IMG/VR virus record: IMGVR_UViG_3300005095_000366
Location: 1-23,342 of that record
Origin: a virus
Reading direction: 5' to 3' (one strand)
DNA: 23,342 nucleotides
Shown here: in pieces, positions 1-19,948 of the stretch
How the letters are laid out: every line of letters begins with the position of its first letter
Numbering within the stretch: the first letter of the stretch is position 1
Notes under the pieces: model-generated
Database searches by the model: none
What the model saw: the letters and a program-made list of their open reading frames with translations, nothing else
Told to the model about the DNA's origin: nothing
Program-made: the position numbers and the translations under genes

Positions 1-68
1 TCTTTATAAGTTAGAAAAAATCTTCTTAATAAAATATAATATTTATTTTAATATATAATTATAAGATT
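1..68. other. AT-rich left edge
   Basis: No gene is supported here. One frame is open from base 2 to a TAA at 56-58 (about 18 codons) and could be the tail of an upstream gene, but it is too short to judge. A TATAAT at 35-40 could serve as a -10 box for the next gene; no convincing -35 lies at the right distance. Confidence 0.3.
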
Positions 69-242
69 ATGATTTTTAAAGATAAAAATTGAAAAGAAAT
101 AAAAATTTGAACAAAAGTAAAAAATATAAAATTAAATAAGATTTTTACTTTTTCAGATGAACATAAAAAAGTACATAATTTTTTTAATTGTCCTGAAAAA
201 GATAAAGAGACAATTATATTAGATAGACTTATTATTTTATAA
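69..242 (+). CDS. Small hypothetical protein (57 aa)
   Basis: This open frame of 57 codons from ATG to TAA contains two in-frame TGA (Gly) codons near the N terminus. The product is Lys-rich (MIFKDKNGKEIKIGTKVKNI at the start) with a KNGKEIKIGTKV stretch that looks like a short beta hairpin. I do not recognise the family. It is followed 17 bases later by the next gene on the same strand, so the two may be co-transcribed. Coding is supported by codon use like that of its neighbours and by reading cleanly only under the UGA=Gly code. Confidence 0.6.
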
Positions 243-259
243 TTTAACATAAAACAAAA

Positions 260-862
260 ATGGAAAAAAGAATAAAAGTAAAAATGAGAGGTGTTGAAGT
301 TGAAAAATTAATGGAAGATACAAGTAATAAAAACATAAGAATTAAATGGTGTAAATATTTATGAAATGAACCAGCTGAACTATATGATGATTCTAAAATA
401 TATGAATATGAATTAATGTTTAGATGTTCAGAATGAACAACAACTAAAGAAATTAAAGATTATATAGATAGTTTTAAATGAATTGAGCCAAAAAATAAAA
501 AAGAATATATAGCTCAAATTCATGTATATGAAACAGTGCATTGATTATATAATACAAATACTAAAAACTTTTCTTTACAAGAATTAAAAGAACATTTTAA
601 AAATATAAAGAAAAAAACAATTTGGGAAGATACAAGTAAAAAAACCTGAAAAAATACTTATGAAGTTTGATGAGAAAAATATTGAATAGCAATAAAATTT
701 ATTGTAAATCTTGAAAATGAAGAAATTATAAAAATTTGAATAAAAGAAACTATAAAAAAGAAATTAAGTAAAAAATTATTAAAAGAACTTATTTATTCTT
801 ATAGAAATTTTAAAGAAGTATTAGATTTATTTGATAACTTTATAAATAATGAAACTAAATAG
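260..862 (+). CDS. Hypothetical protein (200 aa)
   Basis: This 201-codon frame ending in TAG has about ten in-frame TGA codons, so it is shredded under the standard code. The protein is soluble-looking and mixed alpha/beta, with no membrane segment or signal peptide. The C-terminal third (roughly residues 145-200) is rich in Lys and predicted helix. I see no catalytic motif and do not recognise the family. Its 3' end overlaps the next start by 14 bases, a typical phage operon arrangement. Confidence 0.75.
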
Positions 863-1070
863 AAAAAATCTTGAAAAAATTTGAGTATTAAAACCAGTCA
901 AAATAAAAGATTTTAATGAATTTATATTAAAAAATTATTCAGATTTTTTAAATGAAAATTATTTACATGTATGATGATTAGAATTTAAAAATAAAAAAAC
1001 TTGAGAAATAAAAGATATAGATGAAGTAAAAGAAGAAATGATAAAAGATTTATTAGAAAAAATTAAATAA
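849..1070 (+). CDS. Small hypothetical protein (73 aa)
   Basis: The start ATG lies inside the previous gene (14-base overlap), suggesting translational coupling. The 73-residue product has four in-frame TGA codons, including a GlyGly pair in the segment HVGGLEF. It ends in a helical charged tail, EVKEEMIKDLLEKIK. A similar EEMIKDLL segment follows the Tad2-like core in the gene at 10832-11257, which may be coincidence in such Lys/Glu-rich sequence. No family is recognised. Confidence 0.6.
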
Positions 1071-1093
1071 AAATATTACTAATTATTTTAAAA

Positions 1094-1372
1094 ATGACTA
1101 ATTTAGAAAAACTATTAAAAAATAAAAAATTCTCTTATGAAATAGATTGAGAATGACAAATAACAGTAAAATTTTTTAAACATTCTTTTCTCTTGATTAA
1201 AAATGATTATGATGAGAATAGAAAACAAACTGAATGGTGGATAACTATTTTATGGGATAAAAATAGCAATTTATCAAAACAAAAAACCAAAAAAGCTTTT
1301 ATAAATTTTATAAAAATTTTAAAAGAAAATAATATAAAATATGTTTTTGATGAATTATTAGACTTTAATTAA
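1094..1372 (+). CDS. Small hypothetical protein (92 aa)
   Basis: This 93-codon frame ends in TAA and has two in-frame TGA codons near residues 19 and 21. The product has an N-terminal helix, a central stretch of likely beta strands with an aromatic TEWWITILW segment, and a C-terminal helix ending in FDELLDFN. That alpha-beta-beta-alpha look resembles many small phage accessory proteins, but no family is recognised. It lies 7 bases upstream of the next gene and probably shares its transcript. Confidence 0.6.
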
Positions 1373-1379
1373 TTTTTTT

Positions 1380-1559
1380 ATGGAAACTAGAGATTTAAAA
1401 TTAAATGATTTTCATAAATATATAATTGAATTATGAAAAATACACAAGGAACTAGCTAAAACAGATCTAAAAAATAAAGAAATTTTTGAAACTCTTAAAT
1501 CTGTGCATGAATGGATAGAGAGATTTAAGAAAATAAAAAAATATAATTTGCCTTTTTAA
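1380..1559 (+). CDS. Small helical hypothetical protein (59 aa)
   Basis: A 59-codon frame starts with METRDLKLNDFHKYIIELGK and ends in TAA. It is almost entirely helical and charged, with one in-frame TGA at about residue 19. Nothing identifies its function. It sits in a row of small ORFs that ends at the promoter at 1821, a region of the kind that often carries early host-takeover genes in phages; that role is inference only. Confidence 0.5.
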
Positions 1560-1580
1560 AATATTTCTTAAAAGAAAAAT

Positions 1581-1834
1581 ATGATTTTACAATATATTGA
1601 TTGAATTAATATTTCAAAAGATAAAAAAGAAATATTAATAAAAAATGGTATGAAGCAGATATATTATTGAGACAAATAAAAAATACTTTTGATAGTATGG
1701 ATTATTTAAAATTAAAAATTCAATTTCAAAATGAATCTAAAGAAATTTTTACTTTATTGAAACTTTTCTGAATTTATCCAAATAAAAGTCTTATTTGTAA
1801 AATAAAAAGAAAAAATAATTTTGACATAAAATAA
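1581..1834 (+). CDS. Split small ORF, possible -1 frameshift
   Basis: Frame 0 starts at ATG 1581 and stops at TAA 1677-1679 (32 codons). The -1 frame is open from 1625 to TAA 1832-1834 and has no good start until ATG 1697. The two frames overlap at a run of six A's within A-AAA-AAT (1640-1646), which fits the X-XXY-YYZ pattern of a -1 slippery heptamer. Joining them there gives one coherent protein of about 84 residues, continuing KKWYEADILLRQIKNTFDSM. This could be programmed frameshifting, a broken gene, or a sequencing error in the A run. The product is unrecognised. Confidence 0.45.
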
Positions 1835-1851
1835 AAAATAAATATTATAAT
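1821..1851 (+). promoter_or_regulatory. Sigma70-like promoter P1
   Basis: There is a perfect TTGACA -35 box at 1821-1826. The -10 is either TATTAT at 1843-1848 (16-base spacer) or TATAAT at 1846-1851 (19-base spacer). The stretch from the -35 to the start of the -10 is the same as in the promoter at 7755, which argues that both are real. Initiation would fall about 25-30 bases upstream of the ATG at 1883. Confidence 0.75.
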
Positions 1852-1882
1852 AATACATATTTTATTTTTTTAAAAAAAGCTT

Positions 1883-2182
1883 ATGGATTTACAAATATGA
1901 TATTTTATACTTTTTATCTTTCTAATTTGATATATTGTTTTTCTTGAAATTCAATATTGAAAAAAGATAAAGGACAATAAATTTTTGCAAGAAGAATTAA
2001 ATAAAATTCATCAAGATAAAGAAAAATATATTTCTTATTGTGATAAAAGAATTGAAAACTTTAAAAAACAAATTAAAAGCAAAAATAAAAGTTTAAATAA
2101 TTACAGACAAAAACTTTTTAGGAGAAATAAAAGAATTAAAAATTTATTATCTAAATTAAATAAAAAATGAAGCCAAAAATAA
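1883..2182 (+). CDS. Single-pass membrane protein with coiled coil (99 aa)
   Basis: The first gene behind promoter P1 starts at an ATG preceded by AAAAAAAGCTT. Residues 5-22 form one hydrophobic segment (GYFILFIFLIGYIVFLE) and are followed by a Lys/Glu-rich heptad region (about 30-60) and a strongly basic C terminus with an RRNKR stretch. This is the shape of a membrane-anchored coiled-coil protein. Inner spanins look like this, but the position ahead of the replication genes, far from the lysis genes, argues against that. No specific family is recognised. The 3' end overlaps the next gene by 16 bases. Confidence 0.7.
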
Positions 2183-2415
2183 TTTTACAAAAAGAACTTA
2201 AAGAAGAATTAAAAACAAATATTATTGAACTTGAAAATTTTTGATTTACTCATAAACAAATTTGAGAAATTATGTGAGATTATAAACAAGTAGTTTCTAA
2301 TCTTAAAAATAATCCTGATTATCCTTTATGAATTGAAAAAGCAAAAAGACTTTTAGAAAATATAAATAATTTCAAACAAAAAGAAGAATATAAAAATTTA
2401 ATAAATAAAAGTTAA
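2167..2415 (+). CDS. Small helix-turn-helix-like protein (82 aa)
   Basis: It starts inside the preceding gene, in another frame. Residues about 27-60 read FTHKQIGEIMGDYKQVVSNL followed by KNNPDYPLG, which resembles a helix-turn-helix of the Xre/Cro or terminase-small-subunit kind: a short helix with QIGEIMG, then a recognition-like helix QVVSNLKN. The Gly residues in that motif are encoded by TGA. A role as a transcription regulator or DNA-binding accessory of the adjacent primase-helicase is plausible but unproven. It ends 5 bases before the primase gene. Confidence 0.6.
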
Positions 2416-2420
2416 GAAAA

Positions 2421-4685
2421 ATGGATGCAATAACTAAATTAAAAACAGAAGTTAATTTAGTTGAACATATTTCTAAAAGATTATGACAAAAAGGAATAAA
2501 TGAAACTCAATGAGTTAGATTTAAAGCTCATGAAAAAGATAAAAACCCAAGTTTGCTTGTTTATAAAGACCAAAATAAAGGTTATATGGATTACTCTTGA
2601 GTTTTAGGCTGATGATCAATAATTGATTTTGAGTTAAAATTTACAGGAAAAGACAAAAAAGAAGTTATTAAAGATTTATGTGCTATGTATAATATAGAAT
2701 CTGAAAAAAAAGAATTTAAAAAATCTCCAAAAAGAACTGAACTTGTAGAAAAATTTGAATCATATAAGATGAAAAAATCTTGTCCTTGATTTGAAAGATT
2801 TTTACAATTAAGATGAATAAAATATGATTTTATAACTGAAAATAAAGATTTTATAAATAAACTAGCACAAGAGTTTTGATTTGCTGAAAATATTTGGATT
2901 AAAGATAAAATTTATAAAGATTGTATTATATTCCCTTGTTATAAAAATGATGAAATTTGTTGAGCTAAATTAAGAACTATAGACTGAACACCTTTTTCTT
3001 TTGGTTGAAAAGAGATTAAAAGTGTTTCAGTTTGAAAACCTTATTGAACTTGATTAATTTATGAAAAAGAAGAAATTTCAAGTAAATTTGTTTTAATTGT
3101 AGAATGAGAAACAGACTATTTAATTTTAAAATTACTTTGATTTAAAAGTGTTATTTGAAACTTATGATGAGTCTCTGCTCATGCTGATGAAATTCAAAAA
3201 CTTACAAAAAATGTTGATAAAATTATTTGTCTTTATGATAATGATTGACCTTGATTAAATGCTACTTATAGTCTACAAGATAAAATTTGAAGACCGATAA
3301 GAAAAGTTATTTATCCAAAAATTGACTGATTAGATAAATATGATATTAATGATTTATATAATCAAGGTTGGAGAAAAGAAGATTTTATTGAATTAATTAA
3401 AAACTCTGTTCTTTTGGATGAATTTAAAAAAGATGAGATTATAAAACAAAATCCTTTATATGAAGATAGAATTTTTTACCACAATATTAAAATGGAGTAT
3501 TTTGATATAAAAGATTTTTCTTTTAAAAGTTTATATTCTATAGCTAGACATTTTTGACAAAAACCTAAAGAATTTGATGAATTAAGATTAAAATGAGAAA
3601 TACCAACTTATGATTGAATTTGTTATTTTGATTGATGAAAAAAATGACTTTATAATTTATTAGATAAAAAAGATATTATAAAACCTAGCAATAATCCAAC
3701 AGTGCATGAAGATATACAATTTTTAATAAAAAATATTTGCTGATGAAATAAAGAAAATATGGAGTGGTTATTAAAAGCTATTTTATATAAATATACTCAT
3801 CTTAATGATGTTTTGATCCCTGCTGTTGTTTTCCATTGAGTTGGTTGAACTTGAAAATGATTATTTATAAAATTATTATCAAAAATATTTTGAGAAAATA
3901 ATACTCAAATTTGATTAACTCAAGAAAGTATAGAATCAAGATTTGCTACTTATACTTGACAAAAATTAATTGTAGAGTTTAAAGAATTATCTGTTGATAA
4001 TACTGCAAAATGAAAAAAGAACATGCAAAAGTTGAAAACTTTCATTATGGAAGATAAAATAATTATTGAGAAAAAAGGACAAGACCCTATTTCTACTGAA
4101 AATATAGCTTGGTTTATAATGAGTTCAAATGAAAATAAGCCTATTCAACTTGATTCTTCTGATAGTTGAAATAGAAGATTTTCAATAATCAAAACTTGAA
4201 CACCAATTTGATTAGAAAAATGATGAAAAATAGCAGAAGCTATAAAAGACAAAAAAAATGTAGAAAATTTTTTAGCATATCTTTTTAAAAAATATCCTGA
4301 AATTCCAAAAGCAAAAAATATTTTACCTTTAGATAATGAAGATAAAAGAGAATTAGAATTACTTTCTGAATCTGTTTGAAATTTATTTTTTAAATGGTTT
4401 GAAGAAAAATACCCAAATGTAAAATATATAACAAACAAAGAAAGAAATTTTTTCTTGAACTTATATAGAGAAGAAATAGGAGAAGATGACTATATAAATA
4501 ATGATAGATATAAAATAAATTATTTTAACAATAGTTTATCTGTTAGATATAAAGTTATTGCAACAACTATAAAATGAAAAAAATTTAGATGATATAGAAT
4601 TGAAAAAGAAGTTGAATGAGATTGATTATTACCTGAATGAGAAATAAAAAGAATAATACAAAGTAAAAATGATTTAGTTTTTTAA
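2421..4685 (+). CDS. Primase-helicase (TOPRIM plus SF3/D5-like ATPase, 754 aa)
   Basis: This is a bifunctional replication protein that would make primers and unwind DNA at the phage fork. The N terminus (about 33-70) has the layout of a CHC2-type primase domain (RFKAHEKDKNPSLLVYKD) but lacks the zinc cysteines. A TOPRIM domain follows, with VEGE at 227-230 and DND at 273-275. The C-terminal half holds a helicase ATPase with a Walker A GVGGTGKG at 473-480, where four of the five glycines are TGA-encoded, then acidic and sensor-like motifs (LIVEFKELS; FIMSSNENKP; GNRRFSII) as in D5/SF3 phage primase-helicases. About fifty in-frame TGA codons destroy the gene under the standard code. It is the central gene of the P1 operon. 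Whether it primes without zinc is not clear. Confidence 0.9.
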
Positions 4686-4696
4686 CAATAAAAAAA

Positions 4697-5053
4697 ATGT
4701 TTGATTTTGTTTTAAAAGAATGTATTGAAAAATGAATAAAAATTTTAAATAAACCAAAAAGTTTTTCAGATGAATTATCTTTTGTTATTTTTAAATTAAA
4801 ACATAATAATTTTGATATAAAATTAATTAATAATTTTAAAAATAGAGATTGATGAGAAATTCAAACTACATATAAAAATAATTATTGTAAATTCATAGTA
4901 ACATATAATACTATTTATATTGAAAAATTTAATATAGATTATACTTGAGAAGAATTTTTAGAAAAAATTTACTTTAGTGATATTAAAATTTTTCAAGAAA
5001 ATTATTCTTGAATATTACAAAGTGTACAAAATATTTTATTAAAATGAAAATAA
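4697..5053 (+). CDS. Hypothetical protein (118 aa)
   Basis: This 119-codon frame lies between the primase-helicase and the SF2 helicase, 11 bases after the former and overlapping the latter's longer start by 10. The product is soluble and mixed alpha/beta, with central likely beta strands (EIQTTYKNNYCKFIVTYNT) and a C-terminal helix (SGILQSVQNILLKGK). No catalytic motif is seen. Its location suggests a replication accessory role, which is inference only. Confidence 0.7.
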
Positions 5054-6423
5054 AAATGAATATTTTAGAAATAAAAGATTTTTTAACAATAAGAAAAAAA
5101 GTTTATAATCATTTTTTAGATAGAATGACTGATAAAGTTATAAGATATTATAACTGAAAATATTTACCACCTACTATTGATTATGTTATTGATCCAACTT
5201 GAATAAAAAATATTCCTGAAATAGAAAAAACTATAAATTTAAAAATAAAAGAAATTCCTGAACAAGAAAAAATAAAATTTAAAGAAAATATTGAAATTCA
5301 AAATAAAGTATTAGAACAAATAAAAAAAAGAAATGAGAAATATAATTATAGATGTTGATTAATAGAACTAAAAACTTGAAAATGAAAAAGTCATGTTATC
5401 TTAGATATAACTAAATATTATAATACTAATACTTTAATTTTAGTTCATAATGTAAAAACATTGTGAGAAATGTGTGAAAAGTTTAAAAAATTTACAAATA
5501 TAGAACCAGCTCAATACTGATGATGAAAAAAAGAATTGTGAAAAATAACAATAATGACTAAAAAAAGTTTTACTTTAGATTATAAAAAATTTTCTGAAAA
5601 ATTTTCTTTAGTCTTGATTGATGAAGCACCTGTACAATTTACAAAAAAATTTTGGACTGCTTTAAATATTTTTTTTAATTGACAAAAATGAGTTGCTTTA
5701 TATTGATTAAGTTGAACACCATACCAAGATATTTTAGACCAAAAAGATTTAGAAAAATATTTTTGATTAACAATAAAAGTAAAATGACAAGAAAATAATT
5801 GATATAATATAATCCCTAATTTTACTTTTTATGATTATCATTTTAATTGAAGATATGAATATGAAAATCCTGCAGAAATGAGAACTGCTATAAGTGAAAA
5901 TCAAACAAGATTAAAAGAACAAATTAAAAATATTAAAGAATTATTTAAAAATTCTAAATGTTTATTAATTTTAACAGATAGAAAAAATGAAGTTTTTAAT
6001 TTTGAAGAACAAATAAAAAAAATATTTTCTGAAAAAATTTTTATGTTTCCTATTCATGGAGACACAAAAATTAAAGATGATGAAAAAAATATTAAAAAAG
6101 CTAAAGAAAAAATATTAAATTGAGAAAAAATAATAATTTTTTGAACAATACAAAAAGTTTGAATTTGAGTTGATATACCTTTTATAGATACAATTTTTTT
6201 AGCAAGTGCTATAAAATTCAAAGCTACAGTGATTCAAGCAATTTGAAGATGATTAAGAAAATTTAAAGATAAAAATAAAGTTCTAGTTTGAGTTTGGAAT
6301 GATTTACCAATTTTAAACAACCAAAGAAGAGAAAAAATAAAAACTATAACTTCTGAATATTGAATAAAAAAAGAAGATATAGAAATAAATAAAATCTGAA
6401 AAAAAGAAAGAATTAAATTTTAA
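5044..6423 (+). CDS. SF2 DNA/RNA helicase (459 aa)
   Basis: This is an ATP-dependent helicase of superfamily 2, the group of phage UvsW-like and DEAD/DEAH enzymes. With the start at 5044, motif I is KTGKGKS at 110-116, motif II is DEAP at 193-196, motif III is LSGTP just after residue 220, and motif VI is QAIGRGLR at 398-405 with both arginine positions present. Glycines in motifs I, III and VI are encoded by TGA. A second in-frame ATG at 5056 sits directly after the previous stop in the TAAAAATG context common here and may be the true start (455 aa). The length is short for a full UvsW, and no extra domains are seen. It probably acts in replication restart or recombination with the RecU-like and Rad50-like proteins. 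Confidence 0.88.
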
Positions 6424-6434
6424 TTTTAAAAAAT

Positions 6435-7310
6435 ATGTCAAAAATACATAAAATAAATGATGATTGTATAAAAACAATGAAAAAATTAAAAGATGAGTCA
6501 ATTGATGTTTGTATTACTGATTGTCCTTATATAGTAAAATGATGATGAACAAGAACTATATTAATTGATGAGAATTGAAATGAAATAAATAAAAATTGGG
6601 CAAAAACAGATCCAAAAGGTTGCTTAAATAGATGATATAAAGAAATTAAAGTTCCTAGCAGTAATACTAAATGTAATGATAAATGGAAGAAAAAATGAGA
6701 AACAATAGTAAATTCTAATGTTAGAGATTGAAAAATGTTTGAACATAATGACTTATCTTTTGCTGATTGGCTTCCTGAATTATATAGAATTATGAAAAAT
6801 TGAACTCATACTTATATAATGATAAATGCAAGAAATCTAAAAGAATTACAACTTGAAGCTGAAATTTGTGCTAATACAGAAGAAGAAAAAGAAAAAATTA
6901 GAAATTGAAAAAGAGTAAAAAAGAAATGATTTATTTTTCAAAATCTTCTTGTTTGGAATAAATGAAATTTTACACCAAATAAATATTATATGCAAGGAGC
7001 TGAATTTATTCTTATGTTAAGAAAATGACCAGCAAGAAATATAAATGATATGTGAAGTACAAATATTATAAATGTAAAAAATATAATTTGAAAAAAGCAG
7101 CATCCAACAGAAAAACCAGCTGAATTATATGAATATATGCTTAAAAATTCAATAAACCTACCAAGTGAAGAAAATCCTAATCCTACTAATTGGATTATTG
7201 ATCCTTTTGCTTGATGTTGACCAATAATTGAAGCATGAAAAAAATATAATTGCAATATTGTTGCAATTGAAATTGATAAAGAATATTTTGAAATATTAGA
7301 TAAAAGATAA
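6435..7310 (+). CDS. Beta-class DNA methyltransferase (291 aa)
   Basis: This is an S-adenosylmethionine-dependent DNA amino-methyltransferase (N6-adenine or N4-cytosine). The catalytic motif IV comes first, TDCPY at 28-32, and the SAM-binding motif I near the C terminus, DPFAGCGPIIEAG from about 256, followed by the acidic motif II (VAIEID). This order defines the beta class. Motif IV is DCPY rather than the usual (D/N/S)PP(Y/F); the missing proline is unusual. No restriction enzyme lies beside it, so it is probably an orphan enzyme protecting phage DNA from host restriction. Specificity cannot be read from the sequence. It lies 3 bases upstream of the RecU-like gene. Confidence 0.87.
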
Positions 7311-7313
7311 AAA

Positions 7314-7721
7314 ATGAAAAACCTAAATTTTAATATAAAATGAAATTTTACTTTAGAAAGTAAATTTACAACTGCTTTTTTAAAAGAATTTACAAAAGAT
7401 AAAAAATGATGGGCTTTTAAAATTCCTGATTTAATTAGAACAATTAAACCTTTTGATTTTTTTTGAATAAATAAATGATGAGTTTATTTTTGTGAAGTAA
7501 AAATGATTGATTGAGATATTTTTAATTTTTCTATTTTAAGAAATAATCAATATACTGCACTTAAAAGAATTTATTTATTAATTGATAATTTTTGTTTTAT
7601 AAATATGTTTTCTATTGTTTTAATTTATTCAAAAAAATATAATACATATAAAATTATAAATTTTAAAGATATTCTAAAAGCTGAAAAACAAGGGAAAAAC
7701 TTTATAAAATTAAACTTTTAA
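7314..7721 (+). CDS. RecU-like Holliday-junction/PD-(D/E)XK nuclease (135 aa)
   Basis: The product looks like a minimal RecU-type resolvase. It has KPFDFFG (Asp48), then a strand ending FCEVK (Glu61, Lys63) that supplies the E-x-K of the PD-(D/E)XK fold, then LRNNQYTALKRI, which matches the RecU region around its conserved Gln. At 135 residues it is shorter than cellular RecU (about 200), as phage versions often are. It would cut branched recombination or replication intermediates before packaging. It is the last gene before the second promoter. A different member of the same nuclease superfamily (VRR-NUC or Hjc type) remains possible. Confidence 0.72.
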
Positions 7722-7754
7722 GAATAAGTTTTATAAAAAAAGTCAAAAAAAGTT

Positions 7755-7782
7755 TTGACATAAAATAAAAAATAAATATACT
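7755..7782 (+). promoter_or_regulatory. Sigma70-like promoter P2
   Basis: TTGACA lies at 7755-7760, with a 16-base spacer and TATACT at 7777-7782. From the two T's before TTGACA through AATAAATAT the sequence is identical to promoter P1 at 1821. Transcription would begin near 7789, which is the 5' foot of the first structured RNA element, and would run through the tRNA-like gene into the operon at 8098. Confidence 0.8.
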
Positions 7783-7786
7783 AATC

Positions 7787-7848
7787 TTGTAAATAAGATA
7801 AGACCTAAAGACATTACTTTTAAAGTAGCTATTGGCACTTATTTACAA
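7787..7848 (+). ncRNA. Structured RNA element E1
   Basis: An 11-base perfect inverted repeat, TTGTAAATAAG at 7787-7797 and CTTATTTACAA at 7838-7848, closes a 40-base interior. That interior holds a small hairpin (TTACTT/AAGTAG around 7814-7828) and the unpaired-looking segments GACCTAAAGACA and CTATTGGCA. It begins at or just before the predicted transcription start of P2. No T-arm is visible, so it is not a tRNA, and I do not recognise a riboswitch class. No coding frame covers it. It may be a 5' protective or regulatory structure. Confidence 0.5.
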
Positions 7849-7855
7849 AATATAT

Positions 7856-7949
7856 GGGAGAGTAGCTTAATGGGTAAAGTTTATCATCCTTAGAACTGCT
7901 CATGATGATATGAAGACAGTTGTTGCAGGTTCAAATCCTGTCTCTCCCA
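7856..7949 (+). tRNA. tRNA-like gene with aberrant anticodon arm
   Basis: A perfect 7-bp acceptor stem (GGGAGAG at 7856-7862, CTCTCCC at 7942-7948, discriminator A7949), a normal D arm (GCTT/AAGT with a GGGTA loop) and a standard T arm (GCAGG, loop TTCAAAT, CCTGT) identify a tRNA. CCA is not encoded. Between the D and T arms there are 44 bases instead of about 23, and no 5-bp stem with a 7-base loop exists. AACTG (7894-7898) and CAGTT (7917-7921) could be a Met/Ile-type anticodon stem with CTCAT at the loop start (anticodon CAT). Two extra segments, TATCATC (7882-7888) and GATGATA (7904-7910), are perfectly complementary, so the arm could form an H-type pseudoknot. No U33-UCA sequence is present, so it is not an obvious UGA-decoding Gly tRNA. 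Confidence 0.7.
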
Positions 7950-7951
7950 GC

Positions 7952-8030
7952 TTTATATTTTACACCTTGATTATAAAATCAAGATGTTGCCGAAGCTTAC
8001 AACTTTATAGTTGTAGGTGTAGAATATAAA
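7952..8030 (+). ncRNA. Structured RNA element E3 (three-way junction)
   Basis: A 15-bp outer stem (7952-7966 with 8016-8030, one G-U pair) encloses two 7-bp hairpins: CTTGATT/AATCAAG with loop ATAA (7966-7983) and TACAACT/AGTTGTA with loop TTAT (7998-8015). They are separated by the 14-base joint ATGTTGCCGAAGCT. GTTG in the joint could pair instead with the CAAC of the second hairpin, so a switch is conceivable. GAAGCTT at 7992-7998 is also complementary to AAGCTTC at 8043-8049 downstream. It follows the tRNA-like gene by two bases. It is neither a typical terminator (no T run) nor a recognised RNA family. Confidence 0.55.
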
Positions 8031-8097
8031 AAATCTACATAAAAGCTTCCAGTCAAGAAGTAAAACTGATTTATTTTATAACATAATTTTATATATT

Positions 8098-8826
8098 ATG
8101 AGTTTAACAGTTAGTGAAAAAAGTGCTAAAAGGGAAATTATCCCTGAATGAGTTTATCCAGCAAGATGTATTAGTGTTATAGATTTATGAACACAAAAAC
8201 TTACTTTCAATAATAAAGAGAAAGAAGTTCACCAAGTTAGATTTGATTTTGAAATCCCTTCTTTGGAAGTTGAATATGAAGATCAAGAAACTTGAGAAAC
8301 AGTAAAAACTTGTAGAGTGATTTGAATTAATCTTACTGCTAGTTTATCTTGAAAAGCTAAACTTAGAAAACTTTTAGAAAGTTGGAGATGAAAAAAATTC
8401 ACAAAAGAAGAATTAGAATGATTTAATTTGTGAAAAATAGTTTGAAAAACTTGTCAAGTTCAAGTTATACATTCAGAAGATTGACAATATGCTAATCTTG
8501 AGAATGTAATGCCTTTAATGAAAGGTATTGAAGTTCCAACAACTGATAGAAAACCATATATTTTTGAAATTCAAACAAATGAAAAATGAGAACCTGTTTG
8601 ATTTGATGAAGATGTTTTTGAAGAACTTCCTGAATGGATTCAAGAAAAAATTCAAGAAAGTAAAGAATTTAAAAAACTTTATTGAATAGAAGACCTTGAT
8701 GAACAAGAAAAAGCTATTGAAAAAGAAATTGAAGAAAAAAAACAAGCTAAAAAAGAAACTGCTACACCAAAAGAAGAACCTAAAAAAGAAGTTTCAATTG
8801 ATGATGCAGAAGATATTTTTAAATAA
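8098..8826 (+). CDS. Phage ssDNA-binding/replication accessory protein, NGO0469-like (242 aa)
   Basis: The N-terminal two thirds match what I recall of the phage NGO0469-like family: GVYPARCISVIDLGTQ near residue 23, KVRFDFEIP-like strands, then a segment LSGKAKLRKLLESWRGKKFT and GKTCQVQVIHSEDGQYANLE. This is an OB-fold-like protein usually found in replication modules and thought to bind single-stranded DNA. The last 60 residues are a charged linker ending in the acidic tip DDAEDIFK, which recalls the protein-interaction tail of SSB proteins. It is the first protein gene after promoter P2 and the structured RNAs, 68 bases past E3. The family assignment is from memory of motifs and should be confirmed by profile search. 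Confidence 0.7.
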
Positions 8827-8853
8827 TATTTTATTTTTATAAAAACAAGTAAA

Positions 8854-8979
8854 ATGAAAACATATCAAAAAAATGCTAGAAGAAGAATTTTTGAAAGAGA
8901 AATAACAAATTTCTTTTATGTAAATAGATATTGATTTTTACTTGTTTTTCTAATTATTTTATTTTATACAATTAAATAA
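8854..8979 (+). CDS. Small basic membrane protein (41 aa)
   Basis: A 41-codon frame (ATG to TAA) has a basic N terminus (MKTYQKNARRRIFERE) followed by one hydrophobic segment from about residue 27 to the end (GFLLVFLIILFYTI). The topology is that of a one-pass inner-membrane peptide with a cytoplasmic basic head. It is wedged between the SSB-like and Rad50-like genes, 27 and 7 bases away. Such peptides in phages can be inhibitors or superinfection factors, but nothing here specifies a role. Confidence 0.6.
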
Positions 8980-8986
8980 AAAAGCT

Positions 8987-10309
8987 ATGAATACTGAAAA
9001 TGATATTTTCAAGGTTGAATCTAATTTTGAAAAACAAAAAAGTAAAATAAAAAATCTAAAAATTAATTTTATAGATATTAAAGATTTTAAAAATATAGAA
9101 AATATTAATACTGCTCTTTATGATTGGAATGTTATTTGATGATATAATTGAAATTGAAAATCTTCTTTTGTTGAAGCAATTTTAACTGCAATTCAAGGAC
9201 AAAAATTTTTTGGACAAGGTTCTGTTTCTCCAGCATCACTTGTTAAAAAATGAGAAAATAAAGCTGTTATAAAATTATCTATAGAATGAGAAGAAGTTGA
9301 GCTTAAATTGACTAGAGAATTTTCAAAATGAACTGCAAAAAATCCAGCATGAAAAACAAAATTAATTGCTGAATTAAATTGAAAAAAAATATCTCAAAAA
9401 GATTTAGATAGTTTATTAAACTCTCTTACTCTTGATCCACTGAAATTATGACAACTTACAATTTCAGAACAAATAAAAGAAATTAAAGAAACTGTAAAAC
9501 TAGATACTTCTGAAATTGATAAAGAAATTAAAGAAGTTGAAAATCAAAGAAAAGAATTAAGAACTTTAAAAATTTATAAAAATAATCTTTTTGAAGAATT
9601 TGCAAAAAATTATAAACCTGTAAAAAAAGAAAAAAAATCTATAAAAGATTTATTAGAAAAGAAAGAATTATTACAAAAGAAAAATGAAACTGTTGTAAAA
9701 TTCAAACAAAAACAAGAAGAAATTGAAGAATTAAAAAGAAAATTAGTACAAGCAGAAAAAGAACTTGAAGAAATCAAACAAGAGTGAAAAGATTTAGTAG
9801 ATAAGATTAAAAAAGAAAATATTTGAACTCTTGAAGAGATTAATAAAGAAATTGAAAATATTGAAGAATACAATAAAGAAGTAGAAAAATATGATGAGTA
9901 TTTAAAAATTAAAAAAGAAAGAGATGAAGCAGAAAAAGAGTTTAATGAAATAGAAGAAAAATTAAAAGAATTAAGAAAAAAGAGAACTGAAATTATTGCT
10001 AATTCTGATTTACCTGATTATATGGAAATATCTGATGAATTATGAATTTTGGTTGACTGAATAGAATATAAACTTTTAAATACTGCTAGAAAAATTGAAG
10101 TTGCAATTGATTTAATTCTTATCTCTGGAAGTCCTTTAAGAATGATTAGGATAGAACAAGGATGAGAATTAGATATAAAAACTTTAGAAAAAATTAAAAA
10201 TAAAATTTTAGACAATAATTTTCAAATTTTTATTGAAAGACCTATAATTGATAAATTTGATTCAATAGTTATTGATGAATGAAATTTAACTTTACCAACT
10301 AATAAATAA
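8987..10309 (+). CDS. Rad50/SbcC-like ATPase (440 aa)
   Basis: This is an SMC-type ATPase of the kind that works with an Mre11/SbcD nuclease on DNA ends. Walker A is GGYNGNGKSS at about 51-60, preceded by NVI and followed by FVEAILTAIQG as in SbcC and phage T4 gp46. Three of its four glycines are TGA-encoded. Residues from about 165 to 345 are a Lys/Glu-rich coiled coil, and the C terminus holds a likely Walker B strand, SIVIDEG. It is much shorter than SbcC (about 1000 aa), and I do not see a clear ABC signature motif, so it is a compact form. No Mre11-like nuclease is in the window. The start follows AAAAAAGCT. Confidence 0.8.
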
Positions 10310-10313
10310 AGCT

Positions 10314-10829
10314 ATGTTAGAAAAAATAACAAAAATGTTTTGATTATCTCAAGAAGAAAGATTAGAAGAAATTAAAAAACTTTCAAAAGAAGAATTAAGT
10401 TTAATTTTAATAACTTTTTTACAAGTAGAAAATTGAGATTTTCAAGCAATAAAAAATATTCTTGATAAAAATATGGAAAAACAAGAAAATTGAGAAATTT
10501 TAACACCTAAACTTTATTGAAGTTTAAAAAGTTTAGAAAAATATTTAAAGAAATTATTAAAAGAATTAGAACAACCAACTAAAGATGTTGTTGAAGCTGA
10601 TCCTTCTGAATTCCCTGAATTTTCTATATCTGTTAGAAAAACATTTGATTTTAAAGAAAATAAAGACTATTTTGAAGAATATCAAAAATTAAAAGAACTA
10701 GAATCTAAACTTAAAACTGCATCAGAAATGAATTTAAAATGAGAAACTTATGTTGATGCTGATTGAGTTATTGTTGAACCTGTTCCTGTAAAATTTAATG
10801 AAATTTTAACTTATAAACCTAAAAAATAA
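10314..10829 (+). CDS. Hypothetical protein of the recombination module (171 aa)
   Basis: The gene starts 5 bases after the Rad50-like gene with the same AAAGCTATG start context. The product is mostly helical, with an N-terminal helical bundle (SQEERLEEIKKLSKEELSLI), a middle Lys/Leu-rich region and a C-terminal part with likely strands (ETYVDADGVIVEPVPVKFNE). There is no membrane segment or obvious active site. Its tight packing between the ATPase and the Tad2-like gene suggests early or middle expression. The family is not recognised. Confidence 0.7.
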
Positions 10830-10831
10830 TT

Positions 10832-11257
10832 ATGAACACAATAGAAAACCTAAAAAATTTATCATTCTCAAAAGTTTTAGAATTTTTAAAAGCATGAGAA
10901 AAAGCTAGAAGAAAAGATTGGAATAAAGATACATATATAAAAGTTCAATATCCAACTGAAAAAAGTAAAATGAATCAACCTTATTTTTATTGTTATTGTG
11001 AATGAAATCTTGCACCAACTTTTCTTGATAGTGATGATTTACTTGCAGAAGATTGGGAAATAATTATAGATAAAAAAGAATTCACAAAAGAAGAAATGAT
11101 AAAAGATTTATTAAAAGAAGTTCCTGAAAAACATAAAGAAGAAGTAAAAAAGATAATTGAATTATTTTTAGAAAATTCTAATTTAAACTTAAAAGATTTA
11201 CATATTATTATAAAAACTTGAATTAAAAGAACAAATAAAGATTTTAACCAAAAATAA
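10832..11257 (+). CDS. tad2: Tad2-like anti-Thoeris protein (DUF2829), 141 aa
   Basis: Residues about 8-75 have the DUF2829 pattern: LSFSKVLEFLKAGEKARRKD then WN, a hydrophobic strand pair with PYFYCYCEGNLAPTFLDSDD, and the closing LLAEDWEII. Known Tad2 proteins begin with an ALEALKxGxKVxRxGW helix-turn and end with DxLAxDWE. Tad2 binds the cyclic ADP-ribose-type signal made by the Thoeris defence system and so prevents host suicide. Here the core is followed by about 60 extra helical residues (KEEMIKDLLKEVPEKHKEEV and on), making it longer than the roughly 90-aa SPO1 protein. The neighbours are the recombination genes. The family call rests on recognised motifs, and activity is inferred. Confidence 0.78.
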
Positions 11258-11259
11258 AA

Positions 11260-12534
11260 ATGGAAGATTTAAAATTTGAATGAGAGTCTATAAATGCTCT
11301 CAATATAATGGAAAATACAAATAAAAATTTATATTTAACTTGAAAAGCATGAGCTTGAAAATCAACTTTAGTAAATTTTTTTATCTCAAAAACAAAAAAG
11401 AAATTTATTTTATTATGAACAACTTGAATTGCTGCTATTAATATTGGTTGACAAACTATACACTCATTTTTTAATTTAATACCTTGACAAAGAACAAACA
11501 TAAAACAAGCAACAAAAGAAATTGTTAAAGATACTGATATTTTTATTATAGATGAAGTTTCTATGATGAGAGCAGACCTTTTTGATAAAATAAATACAAT
11601 TATGAAAATGATTATGTGAAATGATGAATTTTTATGATGAAAACAATTTGTTTTTGTTTGAGATTTACTACAACTCCCACCTGTTCCTGAAAGAGATGAA
11701 GAATTAAAAAAATACTATAATGAAAAATATAAATGACTTTTCTTTTTTGATTGAAATTCTTTTATAAGAGAAAAGTTTGAAGTTATAGAATTAAAAAAAG
11801 TTTATAGGCAAGAAGACCCAAAATTTATAAATATGCTTAATAGATTAAGAATTTGAGATAAATCACAAGATTTACTTGATTATTTTAATAATAGAGTTGT
11901 AGAAAAAGACCAAATAAACCCAAAATCAATTGTTGTAGCAACTACAAATTATATTGTAAATACTAAAAATAATTTAGAACTTGCTAAACTTCCTTGAAAT
12001 ACTGAATTTTCAAAAGCAATTGTAAAATGAGAATATCCAAAAGAAGACTTCCCAACAGAAGAATTAATTAAAATGAAAGTATGAGCTAGAATAATGTTTA
12101 CAACTAATGAAAATTTAACTTTTGCTTTTGCTAATTGAACTTTATGAACAATTACAAAAATAAATAAAAATTCTAGTTGATTCATAACAACTGTTGAAGT
12201 TACTTTAGATGAATGAATAACTATAGAAGTAAATAAAAAAACTTGGCAAAAAACAGATTGAGAAGATGAGTTTTGAGAACCTATAATAACTTGAACTTTT
12301 ACTCAATTCCCTTTTAAACTAGCATTTGCTATAACAATACATAAAAGTCAATGAAAAAGTTTTGATAATGTTGTTATAGATTTATGAACTTGAGCTTTTG
12401 TAGATTGACAAGTTTATGTTGCAATATCTAGATGCAGAAGTTATGAATGATTACAACTTCTACAACCAATAAGAAAAAAAGATATTTCTATTTCTACTCA
12501 TGTACTTAGATTTTTAAAAACTCAAAATGATTAG
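11260..12534 (+). CDS. Dda/Pif1-like SF1B helicase (424 aa)
   Basis: This is a 5'-3' DNA helicase of the Pif1/RecD2/T4 Dda group. Motif I is GKAGAGKST at 28-36, motif II is IIDEVSMM with the DE at 98-99, motif III is VGDLLQLPPV, and near the C terminus are IHKSQGKSFDNVVIDLG (motif V) and YVAISRC (motif VI). This set is diagnostic, and an Src-homology-like beta domain before motif V (TFAFANGTLGTITKI) fits Dda. All the motif glycines are TGA-encoded. It likely helps restart replication and remove bound proteins. It begins 3 bases after the Tad2-like stop, and its TAG overlaps the next gene. Confidence 0.9.
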
Positions 12535-12733
12535 TAAAATAAAAAATAAAATTTCTAAAATAAATGAAACTATTTCTGAACTTGCTTTTAAAAAAGAAAC
12601 TGCTTGTAAACTAGATTTTAATTTTGAAATTATTCAAATAGATTTTGAAATTGAACTTTTAGTTTGACAAAGAAATTTTTTACAAGAACTTTTAGAATTT
12701 GACAAACAAGAAAAAGAAAATAAACTAAATTAA
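12527..12733 (+). CDS. Small hypothetical coiled protein (68 aa)
   Basis: It starts inside the helicase gene (8-base overlap) in a different frame. The product is helical and charged, with MISKIKNKISKINETISELA at the start and FLQELLEFDKQEKENKLN at the end, and one TGA codon. No family is recognised. The overlap suggests translational coupling with the helicase. Confidence 0.55.
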
Positions 12734-12762
12734 ATATTTTAAATATATAACCAAATAAAACT

Positions 12763-13173
12763 ATGTTAATAATTGAAACTAATAATTGAATTTATCAAAC
12801 AGAAGAAACAAAAGAAAATATTGAAAACCAAATTAAAAAAGGTTGAGATATTATTTTTAAGTGAATGACTAAAGAAGTTAGTTTAAAAGAGTGAGAAGTA
12901 CAAAGCTGTACTGAAACTATAACTCTTTATCCTGATACAAAAATTCTTGCAATTAAAGAATATACAGACTTATGAGAACCTAAAAAAGCAAAACAATTAA
13001 CTCTTGAAGAAGAGCTAAATTTAATTGAAAAAGAAATTGAAGAAAAAGAAGAAAGAAAAGAAGCTTTAGAAAAAGCTTTAGATGATGAAGATTTTATAAA
13101 ATATAGAGAACATAAAATAAAATCTTTAGAATATCAAAAGAAATTTTTAGCAAAATGAAAAAAAGCTGTTTAA
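12763..13173 (+). CDS. Hypothetical protein with C-terminal coiled coil (136 aa)
   Basis: This is the last gene of the P2 operon, with start context AATAAAACTATG. The N-terminal half looks like beta strands (GGDIIFKGMTKEVSLKEGEV), and residues about 85-130 are a Glu/Lys coiled coil (LTLEEELNLIEKEIEEKEER). Seven or more TGA codons are in frame. The family is not recognised; a role at the border between replication and head genes cannot be deduced. Confidence 0.65.
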
Positions 13174-18893: not shown

Positions 18894-19061
18894 CTATTTT
18901 TTATCTTGTTCATAAGGACTAAAAATTGCAGAAGTTTCAATAAAATATTTAATTTCACACTCTTTCTTTTTACAGATAGGTATTCATTTTATATCTAAAT
19001 CAACTTTTATATAATGAGTAGCTTTTCAACCACAAAAAGCACATTTTACTTCTTTAGTCAT
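18894..19061 (-). CDS. Small zinc-ribbon protein (55 aa)
   Basis: The product has two Cys pairs, CAFC at residues 7-10 and CKKKEC at 30-35, separated by about 20 residues with likely strands (THYIKVDLDIKGIPI). This is the layout of a zinc ribbon. Such small proteins can bind nucleic acid or be structural; I cannot say which. Its start overlaps the end of the SLH protease gene by 16 bases, so it is probably translated with it. Confidence 0.65.
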
Positions 19062-19948
19062 TTTAAATATTCATTAAAATTATATAAAACTCAAATAGTT
19101 TCTCCCCTTGTAATAGAATTATTTGGTCTAAAAGTTCAATCATCATATCAATGTATAATTCAATTTTCTTTAGCCCATTTTATAGCTTCATAAAAAGGTG
19201 CTCATTCTTGAACATCAGAAAATATTTCATCAAATTCATCTTTATAAAAGAAAACATATCAACTTATAAAATAAGTTCACTCTTTTACTAATTTTACTAA
19301 TTTTTCATTTACATAAGAATTATATTTTTTTCTATCAATATAATTATCTATATTCATTCAAAAATTATATCTTATGCAGTGTCAACCAGTTATTTTTGAT
19401 CCACAAGAAACAAAACAATCTCTGTCTAAAACTCAATTATCTTGAGAATCAATATAGTGTTCTTTGGTAGTTCTATATCAAATAACTATAGTTTTTCTAG
19501 CTTCATATAATTTTTTAATAATTTCTAAATCTTTTTCACTTTTTAAATCAATTCTAAAAGAAACTAGTTTTTTTTCAGGAAATTTTTTATTCCAATAATT
19601 TCTTACACAATCAACAGCTTTATAAATATATCATCCATAATCTTCTCTCCAACCATAATATTTTTCAGCTATATCACAAATTTCTAAAATTTCTTTTTCA
19701 GAAAAATTATATCCAGTCAAATCAGAAACAGCTCAAAAACTTCAAAATAAAGTACATGCATTTCTAGTCCTATTCAATTTAGCTTGATTGTAAAATATTT
19801 TTGGTGTTTCAGGCTTTATATTATCTAAATAATCTTCTAATTTATCCTTTTCTAAATTTCATAGTAAAAAATCATTTTTACTAATTGTATTTTGGTCTAA
19901 AATTGCTCATCATTCTAGTTCCAAAAATTCTTTTTCTAAATTATTCAT
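19046..19948 (-). CDS. Papain-like cysteine protease with SLH domain (300 aa)
   Basis: Residues about 58-235 look like a papain-fold (C1-type) peptidase. There is a catalytic-style Cys65 in RTRNACTLFGSFGAVSDLTG followed by a helix, then a strand with IVIGYRT, and a His190 in the segment SCGSKITGGHCIRYN with Asn195 nearby. Residues 242-287 are an S-layer homology domain: FSDVQEGAPFYEAIKWAKEN then GIIHGYDDGTFRPNNSITRG. SLH domains bind the S-layer or wall-linked polysaccharide. The protein could be a virion or secreted enzyme acting on the host surface. No signal peptide is seen, so it would have to leave at lysis or ride in the particle. The catalytic residues are inferred by pattern. Confidence 0.78.

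Follow-up and report, generated by a model that had tools for sequence, protein, structure and literature searches.

A tRNA-like element with an apparently remodelled anticodon arm in a candidate leader RNA of a phage that reads UGA as glycine

Results

Layout of the locus

The window analysed here is the whole of virus record IMGVR_UViG_3300005095_000366, a 23,342-base contig. Translation of the window yields long genes once TGA is read as a sense codon. Glycine positions of P-loop motifs are occupied by TGA, and codon counts give 49 TGA per 1000 codons, whereas GGN codons together account for about 8; thus the phage uses code 25, in which TGA specifies glycine. AUA is also abundant (37.8 per 1000 codons). 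Code 25 is found in Absconditabacteria, Gracilibacteria and many phages that infect them (PMC10746230), and we infer from the genetic code alone that the host belongs to this group.

The RNA region lies between a sigma70-like promoter and a phrog_862-like gene in a cluster of replication and recombination genes, forming a leader of about 300 nt (Table 1). The promoter is one of four equally good sites within positions 1-13000, and the aligned position in a related record, L002, reads TTGCAA-16-TATAAT. Just 3' of the promoter is a closed hairpin with a comparable counterpart at the same place in L002, the homology of the two interiors being weak. The features are tightly packed: 4 nt separate the inverted repeat of the hairpin from a tRNA-like element, and a further 2 nt separate that element from the first stem (P1) of a three-way junction, which gives it the look of a module inserted into the structured leader. 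The protein encoded downstream shares 58.5% identity with its homologue in L002 and 29% with that in a second relative, L035. Elsewhere, the window encodes a protein with a Tad2-like domain (Thoeris anti-defence 2; 10832-11257, Pfam E 3.8e-14) and, on the minus strand, a 300-aa protein with a C-terminal S-layer homology domain (19046-19948, Pfam E 2.1e-15), perhaps a wall-binding lysis or tail protein.

Table 1. Coordinates of features in and around the leader
Feature	Position	Strand	Evidence
Sigma70-like promoter TTGACA-16-TATACT, preceding the RNA region	7755-7782	+	11/12 consensus matches
Hairpin just 3' of the promoter, closed by TTGTAAATAAG/CTTATTTACAA	7787-7848	+	Inverted repeat 93% over 14 nt; fold z -1.96
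tRNA-like element; acceptor, D arm, T arm and A73 intact, no encoded CCA	7856-7949	+	Rfam RF00005, 49.3 bits
Helix A, 5' strand TATCATC	7882-7888	+	Pairs with 7904-7910 GATGATA, adding -5.5 kcal/mol to the tRNA core
Helix A, 3' strand GATGATA	7904-7910	+	Sequence
Extended anticodon-arm hairpin AACUGCUCAUG[AUGA]UAUGaAGaCAGUU, includes helix B	7894-7921	+	Minimum free energy fold
Three-way-junction RNA: P1 7952-7965/8017-8030, P2 7966-7972/7977-7983, P3 7999-8004/8009-8014	7952-8030	+	Kept in L035
Possible alternative hairpin GTAGA 8019-8023/TCTAC 8034-8038, would exclude the P1 3' strand	8019-8038	+	By eye in the window and L035
phrog_862-like gene, function unknown, downstream of the leader in the replication/recombination cluster	8098-8826	+	PHROG E 5.9e-17

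A three-way-junction RNA recurs in a diverged relative

The predicted junction recurs in L035 (4826-4923), upstream of the homologous gene, with 26 of 26 pairs kept, six of them with both bases changed. When the partner strand is slid out of register in this comparison, the fraction of paired cells falls to 41-51%. Two sequences are few, yet for so diverged a pair the alignment makes a clear case that the junction is conserved. In L002 an outer stem with further compensatory changes can be drawn by eye around a much larger insert; a model of the junction (R1) finds no match there. Across a 1.26-Mb set of related loci the model returned L035 alone, one of its own source sequences, and a pattern search for the end of the leader returned only the contig of L002. 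Comparison of the junction with Rfam gave no family beyond chance-level matches, and the GOLLD and ROOL models had no match in the RNA region of the window. The 3' strand of P1 could pair instead with a downstream UCUAC, an arrangement that suggests a switch. The conserved stretch that contains the junction covers 7952-8044 in the window, and AAGCTTCC...AAGAAGTAAAACTG is also conserved in L002. GAAGCTT in a junction loop (about 7992-7998) is complementary to AAGCTTC (8043-8049) and may form a pseudoknot.

A complete tRNA core surrounds an altered anticodon region

The Rfam tRNA model RF00005 spans the 94-nt element end to end at 49.3 bits (gathering score 29), and this is the single tRNA match in the whole record. 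The acceptor stem (7856-7862/7942-7948) consists of seven Watson-Crick pairs, with A73 at position 7949. The T arm (7925-7941) contains one G-U pair and the loop UUCAAAU, the D arm occupies 7865-7880, and the elbow bases G18G19/UUC are retained. In an unconstrained fold the D arm is populated at only about 0.19, because its strands can pair elsewhere. An earlier sequence-only reading had described intact acceptor, D and T arms, which these results support, and its coordinates and letters agree with the sequence. Default ARAGORN called no tRNA at this position. Base composition sets the element apart from its surroundings, with a GC content of 48% in the non-anticodon parts and 34% in the anticodon region, compared to 19-24% in the flanks and 22% in the genome. 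Elsewhere in the window there is no sense copy of the element of at least 12 nt and no antisense copy of at least 11 nt.

The 44 nt between the D and T stems (7881-7924) contain two perfect helices in A-B-A'-B' order, helix A of 7 bp and helix B of 5 bp (AACTG 7894-7898/CAGTT 7917-7921), with joints of 5, 5 and 6 nt, just as the sequence-only reading had it. Helices of this kind at least this long were found in 16 of 5000 dinucleotide shuffles of the 44-mer (0.3%) and in 38 of 3329 44-mers sampled from the window (1.1%); these scans counted any knotted arrangement of that length, and so correct for where the pattern lies but not for which kind of pattern was looked for. The knotted pairing is uncommon, not overwhelming, given that the pattern was picked by eye.

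That the two helices form an H-type pseudoknot, as had been proposed from the sequence, was not established. With the three tRNA arms held fixed, helix A alone contributes -5.5 kcal/mol and helix B alone -2.9 kcal/mol, while extension of helix B into an 11-bp hairpin contributes -7.6 kcal/mol and gives the nested minimum, in which the CAU triplet (7901-7903) is base-paired within the stem. In the nested ensemble with the arms fixed, helix B is populated at about 0.85 and helix A at about 0.15. The preference for the extended hairpin over helix A is one of nearest-neighbour energy among nested folds; in a rough hand estimate the knot comes out close to the extended hairpin under some penalties and well above it under others. 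A third option is an imperfect 12-nt quasi-palindrome around AACTG (7882-7893/7899-7910, 83% complementary). The pseudoknot is one of at least three possible structures of the anticodon region.

The encoded RNA lacks a usable anticodon loop

The 44 nt offer no 5-bp anticodon stem with a 7-nt loop containing U33 unless sequence is excised, and the ordinary anticodon arm is therefore absent from the element as encoded. A tRNA intron normally lies at 37/38, and its removal leaves a canonical arm. Exhaustive excision of single segments from the 44 nt gave no 5-bp stem with a U33 loop and a class I variable loop of 4-5 nt; the best single excisions leave a 14-nt variable region and need the insertion to lie at 31/32 or 32/33. 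A single-intron model therefore gives no support to the earlier suggestion that inserts are removed during processing. Removal of two segments yields, among its best outcomes, a CAU loop with G37. When introns were allowed, ARAGORN called a Met-CAT tRNA in which 12 nt are inserted at 31/32 and the variable region is 14 nt long, consistent with the earlier view that a CAT arm has been remodelled. The likeliest ancestral anticodon is CAU, and in a phage with so many AUA codons a tRNA-Ile2 would be a good fit. As encoded, however, the RNA has no usable anticodon loop, and decoding is unlikely.

Several other identities were considered and rejected. A UGA suppressor would need a loop in which U33 precedes a UCA anticodon, and the arm has none. 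The loop letters of CTTAGAA fit a tRNA-Leu UAG, but the flanking stem needs an 8-nt insertion to close. Permuted tmRNA calls from relaxed ARAGORN were low-threshold noise. For an attP remnant, the whole tRNA including its 5' half is present, and no integrase was seen among the genes looked up.

The element is found in a single record

No homologous tRNA-like element was found in any related record. L002 shares the gene order of the window without the element, and the whole records of L002 and L035 gave no tRNA match. Exact and gapped DNA patterns of the element found nothing in viral and genome contigs, a distant blastn search of phage records returned short fragments alone (mostly the T arm and acceptor of ordinary tRNAs), and a search of genome contigs for relatives via the helicase found none. 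Nearly all tRNA matches in a set of 47 phage records, related or sharing the helicase, were ordinary, and those looked at included two unusual tRNAs. One, in a jumbo phage (L140, 1501-1632; phage record G037), has a normal anticodon arm and about 60 extra nucleotides in its variable loop.

The other, in L011 (5443-5535), resembles the window element in its length (93 nt), its intact acceptor and T arm and its enlarged, 12-nt anticodon loop. It lies about 470 nt upstream of a match to a phrog_862-like gene, a position that may be coincidence; no tRNA is annotated upstream of phrog_862-like genes in the Manatee Spring and Pelagibacter phages, as a general rule would require. Unlike the window element, the L011 tRNA is GC-rich, carries a class II variable arm and a different arm sequence, and has no three-way junction. 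The two are likely independent.

Discussion

We tentatively favour, with somewhat less than even confidence, a phage-borne non-decoding tRNA-like domain within a leader RNA, used most simply as a processing signal. The acceptor is perfect, the T stem nearly so and the elbow bases are kept, while the 44 nt cannot be arranged into a normal arm and the nested fold buries CAU. In addition, the strong promoter has its L002 counterpart, the neighbouring features are closely spaced and the GC content of the element exceeds that of the genome. Retention of the tRNA core without a decoding arm, together with an arm resembling that of mascRNA and the tight packing of the leader, favours such a domain.

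The closest parallels are mascRNA and menRNA, of human MALAT1 and MEN-beta, in which a tRNA-like core with its elbow and a longer-stem anticodon arm are likewise carried within a longer transcript (PMC11693755). In these RNAs a compact loop caps the longer stem of the anticodon arm, RNase P and RNase Z carry out processing, and mascRNA is uncharged (PMC11693755). The window element keeps the elbow bases and the acceptor-T stack and has a longer stem with a compact loop, which makes it mascRNA-like by analogy, with no kinship implied. The human RNAs, however, are nuclear lncRNAs with a reduced D arm, whereas the phage element has a full one. A second comparison is GOLLD, a large structured phage RNA that sometimes has tRNAs in a linker region (PMC12286853); the window likewise places a tRNA-like element next to a structured phage RNA, although GOLLD often exceeds 800 nt and is covered by an Rfam model. 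Ordinary phage tRNAs share with the element an Rfam score above threshold, the CAU triplet and, in this case, an AUA-rich phage, but differ in having the standard anticodon arm; default ARAGORN rejects the element.

RNase P and 3'-end enzymes recognise tRNAs via the elbow and acceptor, so the element would be cut on either side. It would be transcribed from the promoter at 7755-7782 as part of the leader of a replication-gene operon and would fold into an acceptor-T stack and a D/T elbow, with a long closed hairpin or a pseudoknot in place of the anticodon arm. Cleavage on both sides by RNase P and 3'-end enzymes would part the promoter-proximal hairpin from the junction leader and downstream mRNA, freeing a stable tRNA-like RNA. 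This RNA would be uncharged and may confer some benefit on the phage. Against such a domain, the element exists as one copy with no homologue among related records, so nothing shows selection, and its absence from L002 and L035 means that the leader does not depend on it. Moreover, a genuine tRNA that had broken recently would look the same.

Such a break is the second reading, which we consider a doubtful but serious possibility: a CAU tRNA gene (Met, or Ile2 reading AUA) would have been broken and would now be functionless, after template switching or slippage copied CTCATGATGATA in inverted form to a site upstream of AACTG. The quasi-palindrome around AACTG and the slippage-like GATGATATGA fit this route, the damage is confined to one arm, and relatives L002 and L035 do not have the element. 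Heavy AUA use gives a reason for once carrying an Ile2 tRNA, and a recent inverted duplication explains the same facts without function. Three points weigh against it, none of them strongly: everything outside the arm is still intact, the ancestor's variable loop would have been only 3 nt, and small phage genomes shed dead sequence.

A true H-type pseudoknot arm with a special role, as a mimic, decoy or ribosome-binding element, appears improbable. The perfect helices, the workable joints and the small share of shuffles that do as well argue for it, but a stronger nested hairpin competes, helix A is a minor species in nested folding and related records hold no homologue. Anticodon nucleases read the anticodon loop, which is the very part that the element is missing, and this weakens the earlier proposal of a nuclease decoy.

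Least probable of these readings, and very unlikely in our judgement, is a CAU tRNA that decodes, either after its inserts are excised or in spite of them, as in the ARAGORN fold with stem TATCA/TGATA, loop CTCATGA and a class-II-like variable region. This fold was found with introns allowed, its stem begins at the canonical distance from the D stem, and the phage is rich in AUA; however, it is just -1.0 kcal/mol better than the bare core and its insertion falls outside 37/38. CAU tRNAs carry A37, where this element has G, and class II variable arms belong to Leu, Ser and Tyr tRNAs. The bacterial tRNA introns known to us are self-splicing and far larger than these inserts.

Returning to the non-decoding domain, we regard a broader proposition as unlikely: some UGA-glycine phages would carry a composite leader, built of a promoter-proximal hairpin, an optional tRNA-like domain with a knotted or closed arm, and a three-way junction, in which the tRNA-like domain would be a functional, non-decoding module for processing or host interaction. 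The three-way-junction RNA, with its compensatory changes and its place outside Rfam, is itself a candidate for a new structured leader. If the tRNA-like element is a broken tRNA, it provides a clear example of anticodon-arm loss through inverted duplication. If it is functional, it would represent a tRNA fold kept by a bacterial virus for its elbow and acceptor alone, comparable to human mascRNA, and the case would come from phages whose hosts decode UGA as glycine.
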